64,000 nucleotides of DNA from Rhodanobacter sp. 7MK24 (lineage in GTDB: Bacteria; Pseudomonadota; Gammaproteobacteria; Xanthomonadales; Rhodanobacteraceae): positions 62,001 through 126,000 of the forward strand of contig NZ_JACYXL010000011.1 in NCBI RefSeq assembly GCF_014842995.1, given 5' to 3'. Below, piece by piece: positions 38,708-63,960 of this stretch. The stretch's first letter is position 1. Each line of letters starts with the position of its first letter. The position numbers and the translations under genes were made by a program. The notes beneath the pieces are model-generated. The model did no database searches and was not told the origin of the DNA. It was given only the letters and a program-made list of their open reading frames with translations.

Positions 38708-40090
38708 TTACTGAACGATCACATAGTGCGTGCCATCGTCGTCGGCCACCACCAGCGCGAGTTGCCGCGGCCGCACGCCGGCGAGTTCGCGCAGCATGCG
38801 CAGGCCGGTGATGCGCACATTGCCCACGCCGATCACCACGTCGCCTGCTTGCAGGCCTGCGGCGGCGGCGCGGCTGTTCGGCTGCACCGCGCCCACCGCG
38901 ACGCCGTACATGCCCTGGCCGCGCTGGTTCTGGTCGAGATCGGTGAAGGTGACGCCGGCGAGGCGCGGGTCGAGCTTGGCGCCGTCGATGCTGGCGAGTT
39001 GCTCCGGACGCAGCGTGGCGCTGACTTCGCGCACCTTGCCGTTGTGCAGCACGCTCAGCTTCACCGTGCTGCCCACCGGCAGCAGGCCTTCGGCGTTGCG
39101 CAGGTCGTTCACGCTGCGCAGCGGCTTGTCGTCGAGCGAGGTCAGCACGTCGCCGGGTTGCAGGCCGGCCTGCTCCGCGGGCGAGCCCGCATCGACACCG
39201 GTGACCACCACGCCCTTGTCCTGTGCGACGCCGAGCAGTTGCGCGATGCGCGGAGTGATGTCCTGCGACTGCACGCCCAGCGTGCCGCGCGCCACCTTGC
39301 CGTGCGCGATCAGCTGCCGCATCACCTCGGCGGCGAGGTTGCTGGGGATGGCGAAGCCGATGCCCACGTTGCCGCCGGAGGGCGAGAAGATCATGGTGTT
39401 GATGCCGACCAGTTCGCCGCGCAGGTTCACCAGGGCGCCCCCGGAGTTGCCGGGATTGATCGAGGCATCGGTCTGGATGAAGTTCTGGTAGCCCGACTTG
39501 CTCAACCCCGAGCGCCCCAGCGCGGAGACGATGCCCGACGTCACCGTTTCGCTGAGCCCGAACGGCTCGCCGACCGCCACCACGAAGTCGCCCACGCGCA
39601 GGCCCGAGGAGTCGGCCAGCGGCAGCGCCTGCAGGTTCGGTGCATTGATGCGGATCACCGCCACGTCGGTGTCGGGGTCGGTGCCGACCAGGGTGGCCTT
39701 GTACGTGTGGCCGCCCTGCAGGGTCACGGTGATGTCGTCGGCGCCGCCCACCACGTGGTTGTTGGTGAGGATGTAGCCCTTGGCTGCGTCCACGATCACG
39801 CCCGAGCCCAGGCTCTGTTCCACACGCTCGCGCGGCGTGGCCGGCAGGCCGAAGAACTGGCGGAACACCGGATCGTCGAAATACGGATTGCGCACCTGCA
39901 CGTGTGTCGTGGTGGAAATGTTCACCACCGCCGGCGTCACCTTTTCCAGCATCGGGGCCAGCGAAGGCATGGGTTGGCCGTCTACCGCGGGCGGCATCGT
40001 GGCATGGCTGGTGCCGGGCACGGTGGCGCCGAGCAGCAATGCGCAGGCGCCGGCAAACCAGAGCAGGAAATGCGGGTGACGGGATGACAT
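38708..40090 (-). CDS. degQ: Do-family periplasmic serine protease (DegQ/DegP type)
   Basis: The 460-residue exported protease has a signal peptide (to about residue 30). The trypsin-like domain has triad His112 (TNNHVVGG), Asp142 (DTDVAVIRI) and Ser216 (NPGNSGGAL), and is followed by two PDZ domains (about 260-345 and 375-455). It degrades misfolded periplasmic proteins and can act as a chaperone. The Q-linker is short, like DegQ rather than DegP. It diverges from the ribonucleotide reductase gene, leaving 336 bp between them. Confidence 0.93.
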   Translation of the reverse strand: MSSRHPHFLLWFAGACALLLGATVPGTSHATMPPAVDGQPMPSLAPMLEKVTPAVVNISTTTHVQVRNPYFDDPVFRQFFGLPATPRERVEQSLGSGVIVDAAKGYILTNNHVVGGADDITVTLQGGHTYKATLVGTDPDTDVAVIRINAPNLQALPLADSSGLRVGDFVVAVGEPFGLSETVTSGIVSALGRSGLSKSGYQNFIQTDASINPGNSGGALVNLRGELVGINTMIFSPSGGNVGIGFAIPSNLAAEVMRQLIAHGKVARGTLGVQSQDITPRIAQLLGVAQDKGVVVTGVDAGSPAEQAGLQPGDVLTSLDDKPLRSVNDLRNAEGLLPVGSTVKLSVLHNGKVREVSATLRPEQLASIDGAKLDPRLAGVTFTDLDQNQRGQGMYGVAVGAVQPNSRAAAAGLQAGDVVIGVGNVRITGLRMLRELAGVRPRQLALVVADDDGTHYVIVQ

Positions 40091-55834: not shown

Positions 55835-56206
55835 TCAATGCTCGCAGAGAAAGGCTATCAGGCCAGCGCGGCGCTTCGCGCTGAGCCCGCGCATGGCCGT
55901 GATCACGCTGCGCTCCTGCGGCGACAGCGTTTCGTAGCTGGAGGCTTGCTCGCCCACACCGGAAGTCGCCGGCTCGCGTCCCATCGCCAGCCAGTCCAGG
56001 CTGCAGCGGTATTCCACGGCCATCTCGATCAGTCGCGACAGTTCCGGCAGGGCGCGTCCGGCGAACCACAGTCTGGCGGTTTCACGGGCTACGCCGAAAT
56101 GCGCGGCAACCGTGACCACGCGCTGGCGCCCGCCAGGCACGCCGGCTTCGTTGCAGGCGTGCTGCAGGCGGCCGGCGAAATCGACATAGGGTGCGGGACG
56201 GGGCAT
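55835..56206 (-). CDS. Helix-turn-helix regulator divergent from the lasso locus
   Basis: The 123-residue protein has an N-terminal helix-turn-helix region (about 15-75) with VVTVAAHFGVARETARLWFAGRALPELSRLIEMA, resembling phage-repressor (XRE)-type domains. A short helical C-terminal part ends in SAKRRAGLIAFLCEH. ATG 56206 is taken as start; a TTG at 56224 would add six residues. It diverges from the TonB-receptor promoter, and an inverted repeat overlapping that promoter (56264-56284) is a natural operator. It likely regulates uptake and processing genes of the lasso peptide. Confidence 0.8.
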   Translation of the reverse strand: MPRPAPYVDFAGRLQHACNEAGVPGGRQRVVTVAAHFGVARETARLWFAGRALPELSRLIEMAVEYRCSLDWLAMGREPATSGVGEQASSYETLSPQERSVITAMRGLSAKRRAGLIAFLCEH

Positions 56207-56263
56207 GCGGACCAGGACGTACAACGGGAACCCAAGTCATTCTTGCAAGCCGACCAATCACGT

Positions 56264-56411: not shown

Positions 56412-56762
56412 ATGTCCCTGCCTGAGGGCGGGGTGGCAGCCAGCAGCGAGCCGTCCAAGCACGGTTTGCGCGAGGGAAAACAATGGAAAGGCAATCGGAG
56501 AAGCCGCCTGGGCGCGGCTGGCGCGTCCGCGCGCGCCTCGAAGCAGCCGGCCCGGCACGAGCGGCCGGGTTGGCGGCGGCTGCTGTGTGTCGATCCGCGC
56601 CTGCAATGGGTACGACGACGAATGCCCATGGCTGGCGACCCCGTGCTGCCCATGCATGCCGGATGCCGTACCGGTCGCACCGAACGACTTTGCCTGGCTC
56701 GACTCGGGATCAACCCGGGTGCGGGCAGGGCCAACCTGGGGAAAGCAAAGGACGCAGCATGA
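56412..56762 (+). CDS. Possible small basic protein coupled to the TonB receptor
   Basis: This 116-codon frame (MSLPEGGVAASSEPSKHGLR onward) has mostly G/C third positions and ends in a TGA that overlaps the receptor ATG as ATGA (56759-56762). That overlap is the usual sign of translational coupling. The product is Arg/Gly/Ala-rich with Trp-Arg-Arg patches and four Cys, and no recognised family. A GGGGA sits directly before the start, giving poor ribosome spacing. It could instead be untranslated leader; the region 56307-56758 is otherwise empty. Confidence 0.4.
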   Translation: MSLPEGGVAASSEPSKHGLREGKQWKGNRRSRLGAAGASARASKQPARHERPGWRRLLCVDPRLQWVRRRMPMAGDPVLPMHAGCRTGRTERLCLARLGINPGAGRANLGKAKDAA

Positions 56763-59167
56763 AGACAAGCACGCTACGCAATGCCATTTCCATCGCCCTG
56801 CTCGTCGCCGCTGGCGGTGCGAGCGATTGGGCCGCAGCCCAAGACACCACGACAGAAGCAAGTGCGCAAGGCGCGGTATCGACAGTCGACACTCCGGCCA
56901 ACAAGCAACCAAAAAAGGCGGCGAGCAAGACGGCGGTGCCAGCGGTGACGAACCTGGAGGCCACAACGGTCACCGGCACGCGTATCCGCGGCGGCAGCAC
57001 ACCATCGCCGGTCATCACGATCGGCAGCGAGCAGATGCAGGACGAGGGTTTCACGGATCTCGGTGAGGTGATTCGCAGCCTGCCGCAGAACTTCTCGGGA
57101 GGACAGAACCCAGGCGTGCTCAGCGGCAACCTGGCCGGCGCAGGCAACGCCAACCAGAACCTGACGGGCGGTTCGAGCCTGAACCTGCGTGGTCTCGGCG
57201 CCGATGCAACGTTGACGTTGCTCGACGGACGCCGCATGGCCTATGGCGGCTTCACCCAGGCGGTGGATATCAGCGCGATACCGGTGGCGGCGGTGGAGCG
57301 TATCGAGATAGTCCCGGATGGTGCGTCGGCGATCTACGGTTCCGATGCGGTGGGTGGCGTGGGCAACGTGATCCTCAAGCGAGACTACGACGGTGTAACT
57401 GTGGGCACGCGCTATGGCGAAGCCACCGACGGTGGGCTGATTACGCGGGAGTACGACATCACCGCCGGCACCACCTGGCGCAGCGGCGGTCTGATCGCAA
57501 CCTACAAGGACGAATCGGTCGATCCCGTCTACAGCAGCCAGCGCAGCTACACCACGCAGCTGGTCAATCCGACGACCCTGTATCCGGGTAGTGACCTGCA
57601 CAGCGGCCTGCTCAGCGTCCACCAGTCGCTTGGAGACTCTGCCGAATTGCGCCTGGATGCGTTGCGTACCGCGCGCGACCAACTGTTTCTGTACAACAAC
57701 AGCGGTATCAACAGCCGGGCCGCGCCGGACACGACGACGACCCTCGTCTCGCCCAGTCTGGAGATCTGGCTGCCGAATGACTGGACGCTGTCGCTCGCTG
57801 CGACTTCCGGCTGGGACGAGCACCACGAATATCTGGTGCAGACCGTGGTCGCCAGCGGTGTGGCGGCGATCACCGATGCCTGCTACTGCAACGAAAGCCG
57901 CAGCTACGAGCTTGGCGCGGAAGGGCCCTTGTTCGCATTGCCCGGAGGCGACGCACGGTTGGCGGCCGGCATCGGCTACCGGGAGAACACGTTCCGCGAT
58001 GTCGACCACGTCAATACGGTCGACACCTTCCGCGGTAGCGAAGGCGCCCGCTTTGCGTACGCGGAATTCAACCTTCCGCTGATCGGTCCCGACCAGCAGG
58101 TCCGCGGTGTCCAGCGCCTGGAGGTGACAGCTGCGGTGCGTGGCGAGGACTACAGCACTTTCGGTGGCGTGACCACGCCGAAGCTGGGCGTGATCTACGG
58201 TCCCAGTCCCGACTTCACCTTGAAGGCGTCCTGGGGCAAGTCCTTCAAAGCACCCACGCTCTTCGAGCAGGACTACGCGCAGAACGCATATCTCTTTTCG
58301 CCGCGCAGCTTCGGCGGCGTCGGCTATCCGGCCGATGCCACCGTGCTGGTTCTGGACGGCGGCAACCGGCAACTAAAGCCGGAACGTGCCTCCACGCAGT
58401 CGGCGTCGCTGGCGTTCCATCCCGAGTCGGTGCGCGAGCTGGAAGCGGAGTTGAGCTGGTTTCGCATCGACTACCACGATCGGGTGATCCAGCCGATCGC
58501 CAACTCCAGCCAGGCTTTGAACAACGCGATCTACGCACCGTACGTCGATCTTGCACCGACGCCGCAGGCGCAGGCGCAGGTGATTGCCAGTGCGCAATCG
58601 CTCTACGACTTTGCCGGAGCACCTTACGACCCGAGCAAGGTGGCAGCGATCATCTACACGCAATACGCCAACACCGCTCAGCAGCGTATTCAGGGCATCG
58701 ACCTGTCGGGATCGTATCGGCTCGAACTGGGGCAGGGTGCGTTGATCCTGCGCGGGTCGACAAGCTGGCTGGACAGCACGCAGCAAACCCTTCCCACTGC
58801 GCCGGCCTATGCCTTGTCGGGCACGCTTTTCAATCCGCCGAAGGTCAGCGGACGCCTCGGCACGGACTGGAAGCGGGGAGGATTCACCGCGTCGCTCTTT
58901 GCCAACTACCGGAGCGGGGTCATCAACCGGATCGACAGCGTGAAATCCGCCTCGTTCACCACGTTCGATGCGGCGCTTCGCTATTCCGTCGGCAAGCGTG
59001 ACGACGCATGGTCGGGAATGGAGTTCGCCCTGTCGCTGGACAATGCACTGGATCGCCATCCGCCGCTGTACCGCGTGGTCTCGCCTCGCTACGTGGCGCC
59101 CTACGACTCGACCAACTATTCGGCGATCGGTCGCTTCCTGAGTCTCTCCGTGTCCAAGCACTGGTGA
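56759..59167 (+). CDS. TonB-dependent outer-membrane receptor of the lasso-peptide locus
   Basis: The 802-residue receptor has a signal peptide (about 1-28), a TonB-box-like LEATTVTGTRIRGG (about 61-74) and a plug domain. The plug contains DLGEVIRSLPQNFSGGQNPG and LNLRGLGADATLTLLDGRR, and VERIEIVPDGASAIYGSDAVGGVGNVI. A 22-strand barrel follows, ending in aromatic Trp (SVSKHW). Such receptors sit beside isopeptidase-type lasso clusters, where they are thought to import the lasso peptide or a complex. GGGGAAAGCAAAGGA lies upstream of the ATG. The isopeptidase gene follows after 56 bp. Confidence 0.93.
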   Translation: MKTSTLRNAISIALLVAAGGASDWAAAQDTTTEASAQGAVSTVDTPANKQPKKAASKTAVPAVTNLEATTVTGTRIRGGSTPSPVITIGSEQMQDEGFTDLGEVIRSLPQNFSGGQNPGVLSGNLAGAGNANQNLTGGSSLNLRGLGADATLTLLDGRRMAYGGFTQAVDISAIPVAAVERIEIVPDGASAIYGSDAVGGVGNVILKRDYDGVTVGTRYGEATDGGLITREYDITAGTTWRSGGLIATYKDESVDPVYSSQRSYTTQLVNPTTLYPGSDLHSGLLSVHQSLGDSAELRLDALRTARDQLFLYNNSGINSRAAPDTTTTLVSPSLEIWLPNDWTLSLAATSGWDEHHEYLVQTVVASGVAAITDACYCNESRSYELGAEGPLFALPGGDARLAAGIGYRENTFRDVDHVNTVDTFRGSEGARFAYAEFNLPLIGPDQQVRGVQRLEVTAAVRGEDYSTFGGVTTPKLGVIYGPSPDFTLKASWGKSFKAPTLFEQDYAQNAYLFSPRSFGGVGYPADATVLVLDGGNRQLKPERASTQSASLAFHPESVRELEAELSWFRIDYHDRVIQPIANSSQALNNAIYAPYVDLAPTPQAQAQVIASAQSLYDFAGAPYDPSKVAAIIYTQYANTAQQRIQGIDLSGSYRLELGQGALILRGSTSWLDSTQQTLPTAPAYALSGTLFNPPKVSGRLGTDWKRGGFTASLFANYRSGVINRIDSVKSASFTTFDAALRYSVGKRDDAWSGMEFALSLDNALDRHPPLYRVVSPRYVAPYDSTNYSAIGRFLSLSVSKHW

Positions 59168-59223: not shown

Positions 59224-61311
59224 ATGTCCATGCCGAAGTGCATCGTGTGGCACCTGCTGATTGCAGGTGCCTTGCTGGCAACCTCCGCGTCCGCGTGTCA
59301 TGCGTCCGCGATCTCACCCCGCCGGCTGCTGGAAGTGGCCGATATCGCTGGTCCGACGATATCGCCGGATGGCCACAGTGTGGCGTTCCGGATCGAACGC
59401 GCGTCCGTGGGGCGGAATACCTACGACACTGTCTGGTACGTACAGGGTCTGGACGATGCGTTGCCTAGACGTGTCGCGGATGGCGGCATTCCGTTGCGCG
59501 ATTCGGCAGGCGGATCCTTGCCGCCCAAGGTGGTTTGGTCCCCCGACAGTCGTTGGATCTACTACCGCGCCGTGGTCGACGGAAAAATCGACATATGGCG
59601 CGCGGAAGCCGACGGCTCCAGCGCGGAACCACTGACGCATGATGCGGCTGACGTGCGCGATTTCGCCTTGGTCGATGGCGGTCATGCCCTCAGATACAGT
59701 GTCGGTGCGATGCGCGAAGAGGTGTTGGCGGCGGAGCTGGCCGAATACGACAGCGGCATCCATATCGACGATACCGTGCCGATCGGCCAGGGGCTGTTCC
59801 GCTCCGGCGACGTCGCGGGCCGCCTGGTGACACAGCGCTTCGGCAAGGTCTGGTTCGACCGCGCTCCGCTGCTCGGCGATGTGCCGGATCGCTGGATGGA
59901 GATCGACCTCGCCTCAGGAACGAAACGAGCGCTTGCAGGCCCGGATGTGCCTGCAGAGCCATCGCTGGCTCCAGGCAAGGCAGGTGTCGATGGCGATCCC
60001 TGGGAATCCGTCCGCAATCCGCAGGACGGCAGAGTGGCCTGGCTTACGCGTATCGGCGATCGTGGCGGACAACAGCAGCGTCCGGATGTCCTGCTATCCG
60101 CGTTGCCCCGTGCACATGCGAGTCGCGCCGTTCGCTGCATCTCGGAGCTGTGTACGGGCAGGGCCATCAGCGGGATGCAGTGGCGTCCGGATCATGACGA
60201 AGTGCTGTTCACCGTCACCGATCCCCACCAAGGCCAGGCGCAGTCGATCCTTCGATGGAATGTGGCGACGGGGCAGGTACGCGTAGTCGTGGAGACCACG
60301 GGATTGGTCAACGGTGGCCGCGATCCAGCATGGAGCTGCGGCGTATCGGACGGCGCGCTGGCGTGTGTGACGGCAGAAGCCGACCAGCCGCCGCGATTGG
60401 AGAGGGTTGATCTGGAAAGTGGGGAGCGTCATGTCCTGTTCGATCCCAATGCAGCGCTCGCAAAGGACATGGCAGCGGTCGCGCCCGCACGCCTGCTGCG
60501 ATGGCAGGACAAGCAAGGGCGATGGTTCGCCGGCCAGTTCTATTCGGCCCGACATGGTGGCGCTGGACCCGCTCCGCTGTTCGTCACCTATTACAGCTGC
60601 CCGGGATTTGTACGGGGCGGGGTAGGGGACGAATGGCCGCTAGCCACGTTGGCGCAGGCCGGCATCTCGGCGCTGTGCATCAACCACCCACCGGGTTACA
60701 TCATGGACGCAGTGGCGCGATATGGAGAGGGATTGGCGGCGGTTGAAAGTGCGGTTGAGCTGCTGTCCCGGGAAGGTGAGATCGACCCCTCGCGCGTGGG
60801 GATGGGCGGATTGAGCTTTGGCAGCGAGGTGACAATGTGGACGCTCAGCCAATCCAATGTGCTTGCGGCTGCATCCGTCTCGACCCCGGTGCTGTCACCG
60901 TTTTACTACGTGATGGGCAGCATCAAGGGCAAAGCCTTCTTCAAAGGCCTGCGGGATCTGTGGGGGCTGGGTTCACCGAACGAGACACCGGAGCGCTGGA
61001 AGGTACTCTCGCCGGTTTTCCAAGTGGACAGGATCCACGCCCCGATCCTCTTTCAGCACTCCGAACAGGAGTACATGCTCGCGTTGGACTATGAGATTCC
61101 GTTGATCCGGAAGCACAAGGCGGATCTCTATGTGTTCCCGAACGAACCGCATCAGAAGTTCCAGCCGCGGCACAAGCTGGCCGTGTACGAAAGAAACCTC
61201 GACTGGTTTCGGTTCTGGCTGCAGGGCTACGAAGACCCGGACCCCTCGAAGAAGGTGCAGTACGCCCGCTGGCGGCAGATGAAGGCGGCCATGGCGGCGC
61301 GCGCACCGTGA
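59224..61311 (+). CDS. AtxE2-type lasso peptide isopeptidase
   Basis: The 695-residue protein has a signal peptide (about 1-29) and an N-terminal beta-propeller with SPRRLLEVADIAGPTISPDGHSVAFRIERASVG. The prolyl-oligopeptidase catalytic domain has nucleophile Ser531 in GMGGLSFGSEVT, a Glu in HSEQEY (Glu614 or 616) and His643 in NEPHQKF. These spacings are close to those I recall for AtxE2. Such enzymes cleave the isopeptide bond of a threaded lasso peptide and linearise it. It ends KKVQYARWRQMKAAMA. It is convergent with the cyclase gene, only 17 bp away. Confidence 0.93.
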   Translation: MSMPKCIVWHLLIAGALLATSASACHASAISPRRLLEVADIAGPTISPDGHSVAFRIERASVGRNTYDTVWYVQGLDDALPRRVADGGIPLRDSAGGSLPPKVVWSPDSRWIYYRAVVDGKIDIWRAEADGSSAEPLTHDAADVRDFALVDGGHALRYSVGAMREEVLAAELAEYDSGIHIDDTVPIGQGLFRSGDVAGRLVTQRFGKVWFDRAPLLGDVPDRWMEIDLASGTKRALAGPDVPAEPSLAPGKAGVDGDPWESVRNPQDGRVAWLTRIGDRGGQQQRPDVLLSALPRAHASRAVRCISELCTGRAISGMQWRPDHDEVLFTVTDPHQGQAQSILRWNVATGQVRVVVETTGLVNGGRDPAWSCGVSDGALACVTAEADQPPRLERVDLESGERHVLFDPNAALAKDMAAVAPARLLRWQDKQGRWFAGQFYSARHGGAGPAPLFVTYYSCPGFVRGGVGDEWPLATLAQAGISALCINHPPGYIMDAVARYGEGLAAVESAVELLSREGEIDPSRVGMGGLSFGSEVTMWTLSQSNVLAAASVSTPVLSPFYYVMGSIKGKAFFKGLRDLWGLGSPNETPERWKVLSPVFQVDRIHAPILFQHSEQEYMLALDYEIPLIRKHKADLYVFPNEPHQKFQPRHKLAVYERNLDWFRFWLQGYEDPDPSKKVQYARWRQMKAAMAARAP

Positions 61312-61328: not shown

Positions 61329-63044
61329 TCAGGTTTGATGTCGGACCCAGTTCTCGACAGCGCACAGGTCGAATATCCGCATGAACCTGTCGTCTCGCGA
61401 GGCCAGGTCGCGATCGAAGAATTGCCGGAGGGAGTCGGTGTCGAGAAGGCCTTGTCCTTCGAGCTGGCCAGTCAGGAGGTAATCCTGGAACAGGCGCTTG
61501 TTCCGGCGATAGACCGCGCCGGAGTAGTTCATGAAGCTTCCTTTGCTGCGTCGATGCAGAATTTCGGAGGGAAGCAGATCCGCAAACGCGTCACGGGCCA
61601 CAGCTCGATTCCGGCCTCCGGTTATCCACATCCAGCTTGGAACCTTGAGGCAGGCTTCCACGACGGGTTGGGACAGCAGAGGCATTCGCAGATGCCACTT
61701 CGCGCCGCGCGCCAGCCCGTCCCTGAAGACCTGGGTGCCGGCCAGGTCGAAGATGCGTTCCCGATCGCCAGCCAACGCGTCGTCGGGCGCCTCAAACCAG
61801 GGATGGGGTTCCAGCATCGCTGGCGCTGGCTTGGTGGACAGGAATGACATGTCGGGCCTTCGCGGAGGCTTCGGCCGAACGAGCAGTTTCCTGAGGGACA
61901 GCCTGCCTGCCTTCCAGAAAGTGCATTGGTGGAGTTCGGCGAGATCGCGGATCGCACGGATGCCGGCAATCGTTCCACGTTCCCTGAGCGCGTCGGCTGC
62001 CGGTGCGGCGGTTCGTGTGTAGCAGAAGACGGTATCGCCGCCACCGCCGGAAAAGAAGCTGTTGATGCCAAGCCGCTTGCCGAACGCCTCGTTCAATTCA
62101 TTGGCCGCATGCTGCAGGAACCACGTGCTCGGTGCTACCGCGTGCGCTGGAATCCGGAAGCCGGGCTGCGTTTCGTCGAAGCCCAGTCTTTCGACATGCA
62201 GTTCCGCACCCAGCACATCCGCCATCAATGACGCGTACCTTCGTTCATCGGCACCGGGTACGGGCGTGACTAGATTGCAACATGCCACGCGTGCGTTCGC
62301 GTCTTGCAGGCAGGCGGCGACGATGGAGGAGTCCAGTCCTCCGGACAGCTCAAGCAGAAGGGATTGATCCGTCTCGGCCCAGCGCTTCACCGTGGATGAC
62401 ACCGCACTTCGAACGTCGGCTTGAGCCTCAAACCTGTCGCGATGTCTGCGCGATGGGGCGACGAATGGCCATGGCGACCACGCTTGCTCCAAGGAATACC
62501 GGTTTCCCCGTACGTGGAGTTGGCAACCCGGCAGCAGTTCGCGCAGACCGGCAAGACCGGTGCGCCCGGCCTTGTGGTGCGGGTAGATCAGGTGGCCGCC
62601 GATGAAATCCCAGTCAATTGCCCTGCTGTACAGACCCGACCGCTCCGCGATCGTTATGTCCGAGGTGATGAAGCGCTTGCTGGGCGAGTAGACGCAGTCG
62701 ACACCGCCAGACGGATCGCGCATGACCGTCGCGGCATCCGAATCACGTCCGGATGGCTGCAGAAGCAAGTATTCGCCCCAGAAATTGTCGACGAAGAAAT
62801 CGACGAGTCGGCGTGGGGAGGAAAGGCGGGACAAATCCGAACTTCCATCCGCGCGCGGAAAGGCATGTCCGACCAGCGCGCCAACGGATGCAAGAGAGAG
62901 TACGGGTGTGTCTCCATCGGCATACAGGTCGATACACCCCAAGGCCAGCTTGTGGTGAAGCCCGAGCTCTTGCAGTCTCTCATCGATACATGCGCCATCC
63001 TCTCTCCGGCCACACCCGTCGAGCAATGCGATGTATCGGTACAT
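61329..63044 (-). CDS. Lasso peptide cyclase (C protein, asparagine synthetase-like)
   Basis: The 571-residue protein has an N-terminal glutamine-amidotransferase-like domain without the catalytic Cys2. The synthetase domain (from about 200) has the PP-loop LSGGLDSS (Ser234-Ser240 region). In lasso biosynthesis this enzyme adenylates a Glu or Asp side chain and closes the ring on the N-terminal amine. FFSGGGGDTVF and a C-terminal RRSKGSF segment are typical of the family. It overlaps the B gene: the ATG at 63044 gives TGATG, and a GTG at 63047 is the alternative. It is thus translationally coupled to B. Confidence 0.95.
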   Translation of the reverse strand: MYRYIALLDGCGRREDGACIDERLQELGLHHKLALGCIDLYADGDTPVLSLASVGALVGHAFPRADGSSDLSRLSSPRRLVDFFVDNFWGEYLLLQPSGRDSDAATVMRDPSGGVDCVYSPSKRFITSDITIAERSGLYSRAIDWDFIGGHLIYPHHKAGRTGLAGLRELLPGCQLHVRGNRYSLEQAWSPWPFVAPSRRHRDRFEAQADVRSAVSSTVKRWAETDQSLLLELSGGLDSSIVAACLQDANARVACCNLVTPVPGADERRYASLMADVLGAELHVERLGFDETQPGFRIPAHAVAPSTWFLQHAANELNEAFGKRLGINSFFSGGGGDTVFCYTRTAAPAADALRERGTIAGIRAIRDLAELHQCTFWKAGRLSLRKLLVRPKPPRRPDMSFLSTKPAPAMLEPHPWFEAPDDALAGDRERIFDLAGTQVFRDGLARGAKWHLRMPLLSQPVVEACLKVPSWMWITGGRNRAVARDAFADLLPSEILHRRSKGSFMNYSGAVYRRNKRLFQDYLLTGQLEGQGLLDTDSLRQFFDRDLASRDDRFMRIFDLCAVENWVRHQT

Positions 63045-63727
63045 CACACGATCCGTATCGGCGTGTGCGTGATGGCATTGCCCACGGTATCGTTCAAGAC
63101 GATGTCATCCACCTGCACCCAGCAGTGTGCGGAGAAGGGATCGAGAGCGATTCCGAACACGACATGCGCATGAATCCGCCTTCTGAGCAGGAATTTCGTC
63201 ATCGCGACGGAATCCAGCAGGCAACGCATCTCAATCGGTACATAAAGGCGTGCACGACGGAATATGGCGGCTGCTTCAGAGAGTCGTCGCTCCGAAAATT
63301 CTGCAAGCGCCCCAGTGCCCGCGGTCTGGATGCGCCTTTCAGCTGCAAGGCCGTCGAGGAGGTTCTTGAGCGTGGAAATCTTCAGCTTTATCCGTGTGAT
63401 CAGGACGATTGCGAAAACCTCCATCAGCTCTGAGACGCGAAGTTTCCGCGACGGAAGCGATGCTTCCATGGCGCTGCGAATGACGGGCTCGATGCTTGGA
63501 CTGTCGCCAGTCATCGGATGCAATGGTTCAACGAGGATGCGGCGTTCCACCAATGTGCTTATGTCCGGACCGGGACACTCAGCTCCATCCAGGTAGGCAA
63601 CCAGCGCCTGTTCCATCAGGAATGGCAACTGGAAGTACCGATCATCGCCGACGTCCAGAAAGACCAGCCTATCGTCGACCCTGCAGTACGAAAGATCGTC
63701 ACGCAACACGTAGCGGGTCATGCCCAT
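63044..63727 (-). CDS. Lasso peptide B protein (leader-binding domain plus transglutaminase-like protease)
   Basis: The 227-residue protein joins an N-terminal RRE/PqqD-like domain (about 1-80, with VDDRLVFLDVGDDRYFQLP) to a transglutaminase-like Cys protease. Cys169 lies in EMRCLLDS, His201 in SAHCWVQVDD and Asp213 in VLND. The 32 and 12 residue spacings equal those I recall for McjB (Cys150, His182, Asp194). It recognises the leader and cuts it off to free the ring amine. Two starts are possible (63727 or 63721); GAGG lies nine bases before the second, so it is the better-spaced. Confidence 0.93.
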   Translation of the reverse strand: MGMTRYVLRDDLSYCRVDDRLVFLDVGDDRYFQLPFLMEQALVAYLDGAECPGPDISTLVERRILVEPLHPMTGDSPSIEPVIRSAMEASLPSRKLRVSELMEVFAIVLITRIKLKISTLKNLLDGLAAERRIQTAGTGALAEFSERRLSEAAAIFRRARLYVPIEMRCLLDSVAMTKFLLRRRIHAHVVFGIALDPFSAHCWVQVDDIVLNDTVGNAITHTPIRIV

Positions 63728-63741
63728 ATCCCTCGAAGGAG

Positions 63742-63771
63742 AAGGGACGCGCCCGGCGGGGCGCGTCCCTT
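63742..63771 (-). terminator. Intergenic hairpin between lasso genes A and B
   Basis: A perfect 13-bp stem, 63742-63754 with 63759-63771, has a four-base loop and A/T at its ends. It lies 4 bp after the precursor stop and 14 bp before the B start. Similar hairpins between A and B genes of lasso loci attenuate read-through, so precursor mRNA exceeds enzyme mRNA. Confidence 0.85.
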
Positions 63772-63775
63772 GGAC

Positions 63776-63916
63776 TCAGTCCTGAGAAATTCCCGCGGGG
63801 CTGAAGCCGCCAATGACTTCGTTCGTCAGCGGGCCGCCCTGGGTTTCGACGCTGGCGATGCCGAGCACGGTGACGTCTTCCGACGCGGTGGTGTCGATGT
63901 TTTCGTTTGTGTTCAT
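63776..63916 (-). CDS. Lasso peptide precursor, xanthomonin-like
   Basis: The 46-residue precursor has a 26-residue leader (MNTNENIDTTASEDVTVLGI then ASVETQ) and a 20-residue core GGPLTNEVIGGFSPAGISQD (codons 27-46, 63838-63779). Thr sits at leader position -2, as required by lasso proteases. Core Gly1 and Glu7 predict a seven-residue ring; later Phe12 and the residues around Gly10-Gly11 would form the loop and plug. The core resembles xanthomonin I (GGPLAGEEIGGFNVPG from memory), including IGGF and the PLxxE spacing. AGGAG lies six bases before the ATG. An in-frame ATG at 63958 lies upstream of the ribosome site and is not favoured. Confidence 0.93.
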   Translation of the reverse strand: MNTNENIDTTASEDVTVLGIASVETQGGPLTNEVIGGFSPAGISQD

Positions 63917-63933: not shown

Positions 63934-63956
63934 GCGTCATGGCAATTCCATGACGC
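63934..63956. promoter_or_regulatory. Perfect inverted repeat upstream of the lasso precursor
   Basis: GCGTCATGG (63934-63942) and CCATGACGC (63948-63956) pair perfectly around five bases, 18 bp upstream of the precursor start. It could be an operator or a 5' leader hairpin. Confidence 0.6.
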
Positions 63957-63960
63957 ATGC

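Follow-up and report, generated by a model that had tools for sequence, protein, structure and literature searches.

A xanthomonin-type lasso peptide gene cluster predicted in Rhodanobacter sp. 7MK24, and unlinked receptor-isopeptidase units in related genomes

Lasso peptide clusters of the isopeptidase type have been described, in the part available to us of one account (PMC9266682), as carrying as standard a GntR regulator before the precursor gene and a TonB transporter, with a sigma/anti-sigma pair beyond the isopeptidase, and the isopeptidases are stated there to act on the cognate peptide only. A core with a predicted seven-residue ring, from S. acidaminiphila, has been in print since 2015 (PMC4675943) and, for xanthomonin I, a crystal structure without four tail residues is mentioned in the portion seen of a 2026 review (PMC13352647). 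Lasso clusters have also been reported on the basis of antiSMASH for R. lycopersici and R. geophilus, according to an excerpt of a further paper (PMC11596576).

The locus described here lies towards one end of a stretch of 64,000 nucleotides from Rhodanobacter sp. 7MK24, which we refer to as the window. Its genes, their families, their conserved key residues, their conserved layout and the clade of the cyclase are directly apparent: a precursor gene (A), a leader peptidase gene (B) and a cyclase gene (C) are all on the minus strand, while an isopeptidase gene (E) and a TonB-dependent receptor gene converge on them from the plus strand. It is very probable that they form a complete isopeptidase-type lasso cluster of the xanthomonin clade, in which B and C would make a seven-ring peptide that the receptor would take up again and E would open.

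Gene A (63776–63916, minus strand; 46 codons and a stop) encodes a leader, MNTNENIDTTASEDVTVLGIASVETQ, which ends with Thr at −2 and Gln at −1, followed by the core GGPLTNEVIGGFSPAGISQD (63779–63838, minus strand). The core starts with Gly1, has Glu7 as its first acidic residue and Asp20 as the sole other, carries Val at position 8 and terminates in ISQD; retranslation of the minus-strand frame reproduced the letters of the first-pass annotation, namely Gly1, Glu7 as the first acid, Thr at −2 and the ISQD end. A mechanical list of open reading frames opens the gene 14 codons further upstream, at 63958, and the start was placed at the ATG at 63916 because a GGAG ribosome-binding site precedes it and relatives start likewise. 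The product scores 41.7 bits against the Pfam Subterisin family PF24178 (cut-off 27) and 49.6 bits against the NCBIfam benenodin family NF033522 (cut-off 33), the latter matching once in the source genome and nowhere in 14 control genomes. A chance reading frame is excluded by these scores, by the single genomic match and by the controls without a match, and the location of B and C next on the same strand argues likewise. Thr at −2, Gly1, an acid within positions 7–9 and adjoining B and C genes mark the locus as a lasso cluster, and Gly1 with Glu7 as its ring partner, predicted from sequence, as one of xanthomonin type. Ring closure via Asp20 was set aside, this being the C-terminal residue. 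The last four residues may be trimmed, as first suggested; among 17 aligned precursors the G-I-S near the C-terminus shows little or no variation. No second precursor was found between A and B of the window cluster, unlike in loci L036, L119, L120 and L121, and a PDB sequence search with the core, covering chains of at least 20 residues, yielded no match.

Among the named systems, the Xanthomonas locus L120 carries cores which we take to be xanthomonins I and II, the first of which also occurs in L121. Like the window core they start with GGPL and have Glu7, IGG or MGG at positions 9–11 and GIS at 16–18, and their clusters share the module order of the window and have cyclases in one starred set of nine with it. 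They differ in having Ala5, Gly6 and Glu8 in place of Thr5, Asn6 and Val8, in residues 12–15, in the genus and in the presence of two precursors in each locus rather than one; C and B of the window are 64% and 54% identical, respectively, to those of L120. The earlier claim that residues 5, 6 and 8 depart from the known members is true against these Xanthomonas cores. The nearest cores are those of Dyella lutea (L034/L068), GGPLTNEVIGGFAPMGISQE, and Rhodanobacter sp. A1T4 (L055/L067), GGPLMNEVIGGFTTAGISQD, in which three and four residues, respectively, differ from the window core; in A1T4, unlike in the window, E and the receptor are on a separate contig, and no report on either cluster was found in the open-licence literature. 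R. thiooxydans LCS2 (L065/L082) shares the module and the leader type, but its core GVLPIGNEFMGHAATPGITE, presumably rhodanodin, has the acid at position 8 rather than 7 and its cyclase falls in a different clade. The S. acidaminiphila cluster (L100; PMC4675943) is similar in its module, in a leader ending in VLGVASVETQ and in a predicted seven-residue ring with Glu7, and is dissimilar in its core GILQGNEPMGGEPVPGISEE and in its cyclase, which belongs to another clade.

The first-pass annotation had described a seven-residue ring as known mainly from the xanthomonins, and the comparison limits this, the signature being common in Lysobacterales relatives. From 70 precursor reads, made with a pattern that fixes Gly1 and Thr(−2) and leaves an acid at 7 or 8 free, 65 distinct related cores were obtained (L118 is absent, its repeats failing the leader pattern), and in 43 of them, the class of the window core, the acid is at 7 only, in 11 at 8 only and in 11 at both, with at least one of the two positions acidic in every core. 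A predicted seven-residue ring is ordinary in this leader family, an acid at position 7 being the common state (54 of the 65 cores). On a quick cyclase tree of 57 rows, with SH-aLRT supports only, the window falls in a starred set of nine (support 100) consisting of eight GGPL clusters and L088; the set includes the Xanthomonas cyclases of L120 and L121, whose xanthomonin identity is presumed from their cores. The GGPL group by itself has a support of 82, and the cyclases of the window, Dyella lutea and A1T4 form a starred set of three (98). Just three changes between acid 7 and acid 8 are needed on this tree, counted with rows carrying both acids omitted and with L094, whose two cores represent one class each, taken as 7, and predicted ring size thus follows cyclase lineage. 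Since residue 8 of the window core is Val, its ring closure is less ambiguous than that of the Glu7-Glu8 xanthomonin cores.

The original proposal of a xanthomonin-like lasso peptide with a predicted Gly1-Glu7 ring is thus backed by the family matches, the intact A-B-C-E-receptor module that relatives share and the cyclase tree. That it would be a new member also agrees with a scan of 84,980 species, one genome each, which gave 40 loci: none of the cores from 38 of them (all except L101 and L105) is identical to that of the window, where the scan may omit records of the window's own genome and the Sphingomonas loci L101 and L105 and the weakly matching L066 were left out when cores were read. 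No description of the core was found in the accessible parts of the open-licence literature, where none of five core strings turned up. A new xanthomonin-type member is supported, well so as a gene cluster, the molecule itself being predicted.

The processing genes adjoin the precursor. B (63044–63727, minus strand; 227 aa), a leader peptidase with a lasso B2 domain, matches NF033537 with 75 bits (cut-off 33) and also Transglut_core3. C (61329–63047, minus strand; 572 aa), an asparagine-synthase-like lasso cyclase with the motif SGGLDSS at 235, matches PF00733 with 112.7 bits and scores below the cut-off of each NCBIfam cyclase model matched. E (59224–61311, plus strand; start inferred, the frame opening at 59008) has a signal-like N-terminus and scores 655.3 bits against NF033523, the Atxe2-family isopeptidase model (cut-off 400). 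It aligns with the solved AtxE2 structure 5txc (1.8e-50), such that the Ser of its GLSFG motif meets the AtxE2 Ser that reads Ala in a second entry, 5txe, and Glu 616 and His 643 align as well. Residues C169, D172 and H201 of B and S235, D239 and S240 of C are kept in all 58 aligned relatives, and S531, E616 and H643 of E in all 55, after four near-duplicate or partial loci had been dropped and with loci lacking the gene uncounted. In the interval between A and B there is a strong hairpin (63742–63771, minus strand); the stretch 63724–63780 folds at −31.9 kcal/mol (z −3.39) and the hairpin received no terminator score in a terminator scan.

The receptor (56759–59167, plus strand; start inferred, the frame opening at 56483) has a Plug domain and a beta-barrel and no STN domain. 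An AtxE2-type isopeptidase and a TonB transporter adjoin the biosynthetic genes, and a GntR-like regulator (L003) precedes A immediately beyond the window; these features are as given for the isopeptidase type in the available part of PMC9266682, and the sigma/anti-sigma pair placed there beyond the isopeptidase was not found. As no FecR- or ECF-like tblastn match at 1e-6 occurs in window positions 40001–64000 and the receptor lacks STN, the window cluster appears to be a variant without this pair. No exporter gene for the peptide was identified. Upstream of the receptor is a small open reading frame (55835–56224, minus strand) without a Pfam match that looks helix-turn-helix-like by eye; similar frames are seen in L061 (85%) and, next to the receptor, in L034 (62%).

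The regulator L003, upstream of A, matches Pfam GntR with 46 bits, and 61 of 63 loci have such a regulator; in two of these, L058 and L062, it is several kb away from A. A palindrome, CGTCATGG-AATTG-CCATGACG (63935–63955), with perfect arms, ends 18 nt before the ATG of gene A and is conserved about 20 nt before precursors across loci. Of 62 loci, three of which repeat another's genome, 58 have the pattern, GTCATG or GCCATG, a short spacer and CATGAC or CATGGC, shortly ahead of their first precursor; it is absent in L041, L055, L072 and L132, near forms being found in the last three. Within the window it occurs before A and once elsewhere (38679), E and the receptor having none in front of them. 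Of the distinct upstream stretches, 67 when those of the second precursors in tandem pairs are counted, 47 contained an inverted repeat with perfect 8-bp arms, against six of 1340 shuffles, and four of the 47 (L036, L088, L119 and L120) differ in sequence. The arms covary, from GTCATG/CATGAC to GCCATG/CATGGC, yet G-T and C-A pairs both occur singly, and the palindrome is a candidate for either a DNA operator or an RNA hairpin in the 5' UTR. A promoter scan gave no sigma-70-like site at the expected place before A and one further upstream; by eye, a putative promoter, TTGAAA-18-TACGCT, precedes the palindrome.

From these genes we infer leader cleavage, ring closure, threading, export, re-uptake and regulation. 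B would recognise Thr(−2) and remove the leader by cleavage behind Gln(−1); C would activate Glu7 with ATP and join it to the amino group of Gly1, so that a ring of seven residues encircles the tail. The lasso peptide would then leave the cell, and it, or one like it, would re-enter through the TonB receptor to be opened by E, while the GntR regulator and the palindrome probably control production.

The sequence does not by itself prove threading, and ring size varies within the leader family (in 11 of 65 cores the acid stands at 8 instead of 7), so that a processed peptide might instead be closed at another residue or form an unthreaded branched cycle. We consider this quite unlikely, given that the core offers only Glu7 and the C-terminal Asp20, that an acid at position 7 is the prevalent state and that acid position tracks cyclase lineage. 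A product acting chiefly as an antibacterial toxin against near relatives, with the receptor as its entry to target cells, would recall astexin-1, which derives from an isopeptidase cluster and has narrow activity, but antimicrobial activity is absent from the rest of the known lasso peptides of the isopeptidase type (both according to the part seen of PMC9266682). The retention of receptor and isopeptidase with the precursor, and the lack of an identified immunity exporter in the module, also make such a role unlikely. Decaying clusters are known in the group, L041 having a partial C, a remnant of E and a degraded palindrome, and the window cluster could likewise be silent or decayed with nothing made; all five of its genes are open, however, with conserved residues kept and a perfect palindrome, and we judge this very unlikely.

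Within the Rhodanobacteraceae the precursor family was matched in 31 of 233 genomes, 29 above cut-off, and order-wide in 36 of 398, 32 above cut-off. The isopeptidase exceeded its cut-off in 30 of the 233, weaker S9 matches occurring in all of them, and precursor and isopeptidase co-occur in 29 genomes, with the precursor alone in G077 and G167 and the isopeptidase alone in G199. The A-B-C-E-receptor module is present in most of the relatives compared. L041 (G143:C11) is an extra lasso cluster whose precursor is still readable and which is apparently decaying. In G175 the cluster is split at the C/E junction, GntR-A-B-C and E-receptor lying on separate contigs (L055 and L133), which suggests two separable cluster halves. 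In L118 (7471–7800, plus strand; G445:C1) a single open frame ahead of a full B-C-E-receptor module encodes three lasso cores in tandem, each following a leader-like stretch (LGTASTETR, LGIASEETR and IGIASEETQ), and is a candidate lasso precursor of the multi-core kind. A piece of a Lysobacterales-like lasso cluster occurs in L104, a contig of 3133 bases under the name Paenibacillus dendritiformis, where contamination is likely.

The 30 genomes contain 41 isopeptidases above cut-off, 11 of which have no A, B or C adjoining in the stretch examined: four in G162, two each in G168 and G192 and one each in G169, G199 and G175. Those of G162 (in the region of L135, L136 and L049, G162:C16:149000–191000) stand in a row, with FecR near each, upstream of the genome's own complete cluster, and G192 (R. 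thiooxydans LCS2) has its own eight-type core. In the window's genus, L134 (G199:C3) is a receptor-isopeptidase unit in a genome without a precursor match, possibly a consumer without production. The G175 unit is a split cluster with its own A-B-C half on another contig and thus provides no evidence for a foreign ligand.

The unlinked receptors differ in their domains from the linked ones. STN was detected in all 11 at E 0.001 or better, two of the matches (25.7 and 22.5 bits) lying below the gathering score of 28.4, against 10 of 55 linked receptors (nine of 53 at E 0.01, plus L049 with the domain and L131 without it). FecR adjoins nine of the 11 (L133 and L134 excepted) and two of the 55 (L064 and L128), a count that may be low since most loci were covered to about 1 kb past the receptor; L124 has an ECF-like match alone, without FecR. 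Fisher tests of unlinked versus linked receptors gave 3e-7 for STN and 8e-8 for FecR, with kinship ignored. On an isopeptidase tree of 66 rows the 11 are scattered, with 10 changes against a shuffled mean of 10.4. L136d forms a pair with the LCS2 enzyme (100); L138b, from LCS2, groups with enzymes of the GPGGVIEP type (100), L135a with those of the GGTGQSEANG type (100) and L138a with that of Dyella lutea (97). L137a and L139 fall in a GQGGNIEP-like set (100), the placement of L135b next to L064 is weakly supported (94), and L136c stands without a near neighbour. E of the window belongs to a starred set of eight (99) with L133, L134, L137b, L138a, L034, L037 and L039, a set that does not define one ligand, as the clusters L037 and L039 differ from that of the window in core type and in cyclase clade.

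Because isopeptidases are described as cognate-specific in the part seen of PMC9266682, foreign ligands are a fair reading of the unlinked units. The want of A, B and C beside these units, with STN in all of them and FecR near nine, suggests that they may serve the sensing or uptake of lasso peptides from other strains. For L134, L137b and L138a, whose isopeptidases fall in the starred group of window E and whose host genomes have a different type of precursor or no precursor match, the window peptide or a close relative would then be a candidate ligand. The accessible open-licence literature yielded no description of such units. A broader reading, which we advance tentatively and would not call probable, is that isopeptidase-type lasso peptides, including that of the window, are shared goods or signals which other strains sense and exploit, and that the unlinked units are receptors for foreign lassos, STN with FecR and a sigma factor sensing the peptide and the isopeptidase opening it.

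The predicted peptide of the window would place a xanthomonin-type lasso peptide in the Rhodanobacteraceae, with a ring call unconfused by an acid at position 8, and the tracking of predicted ring size with cyclase lineage offers matched enzyme sets with which to ask how ring size is set. The unlinked units, dispersed among isopeptidases from clusters of other species and bearing a signalling domain, would make the function of isopeptidase-type lasso peptides directly testable.
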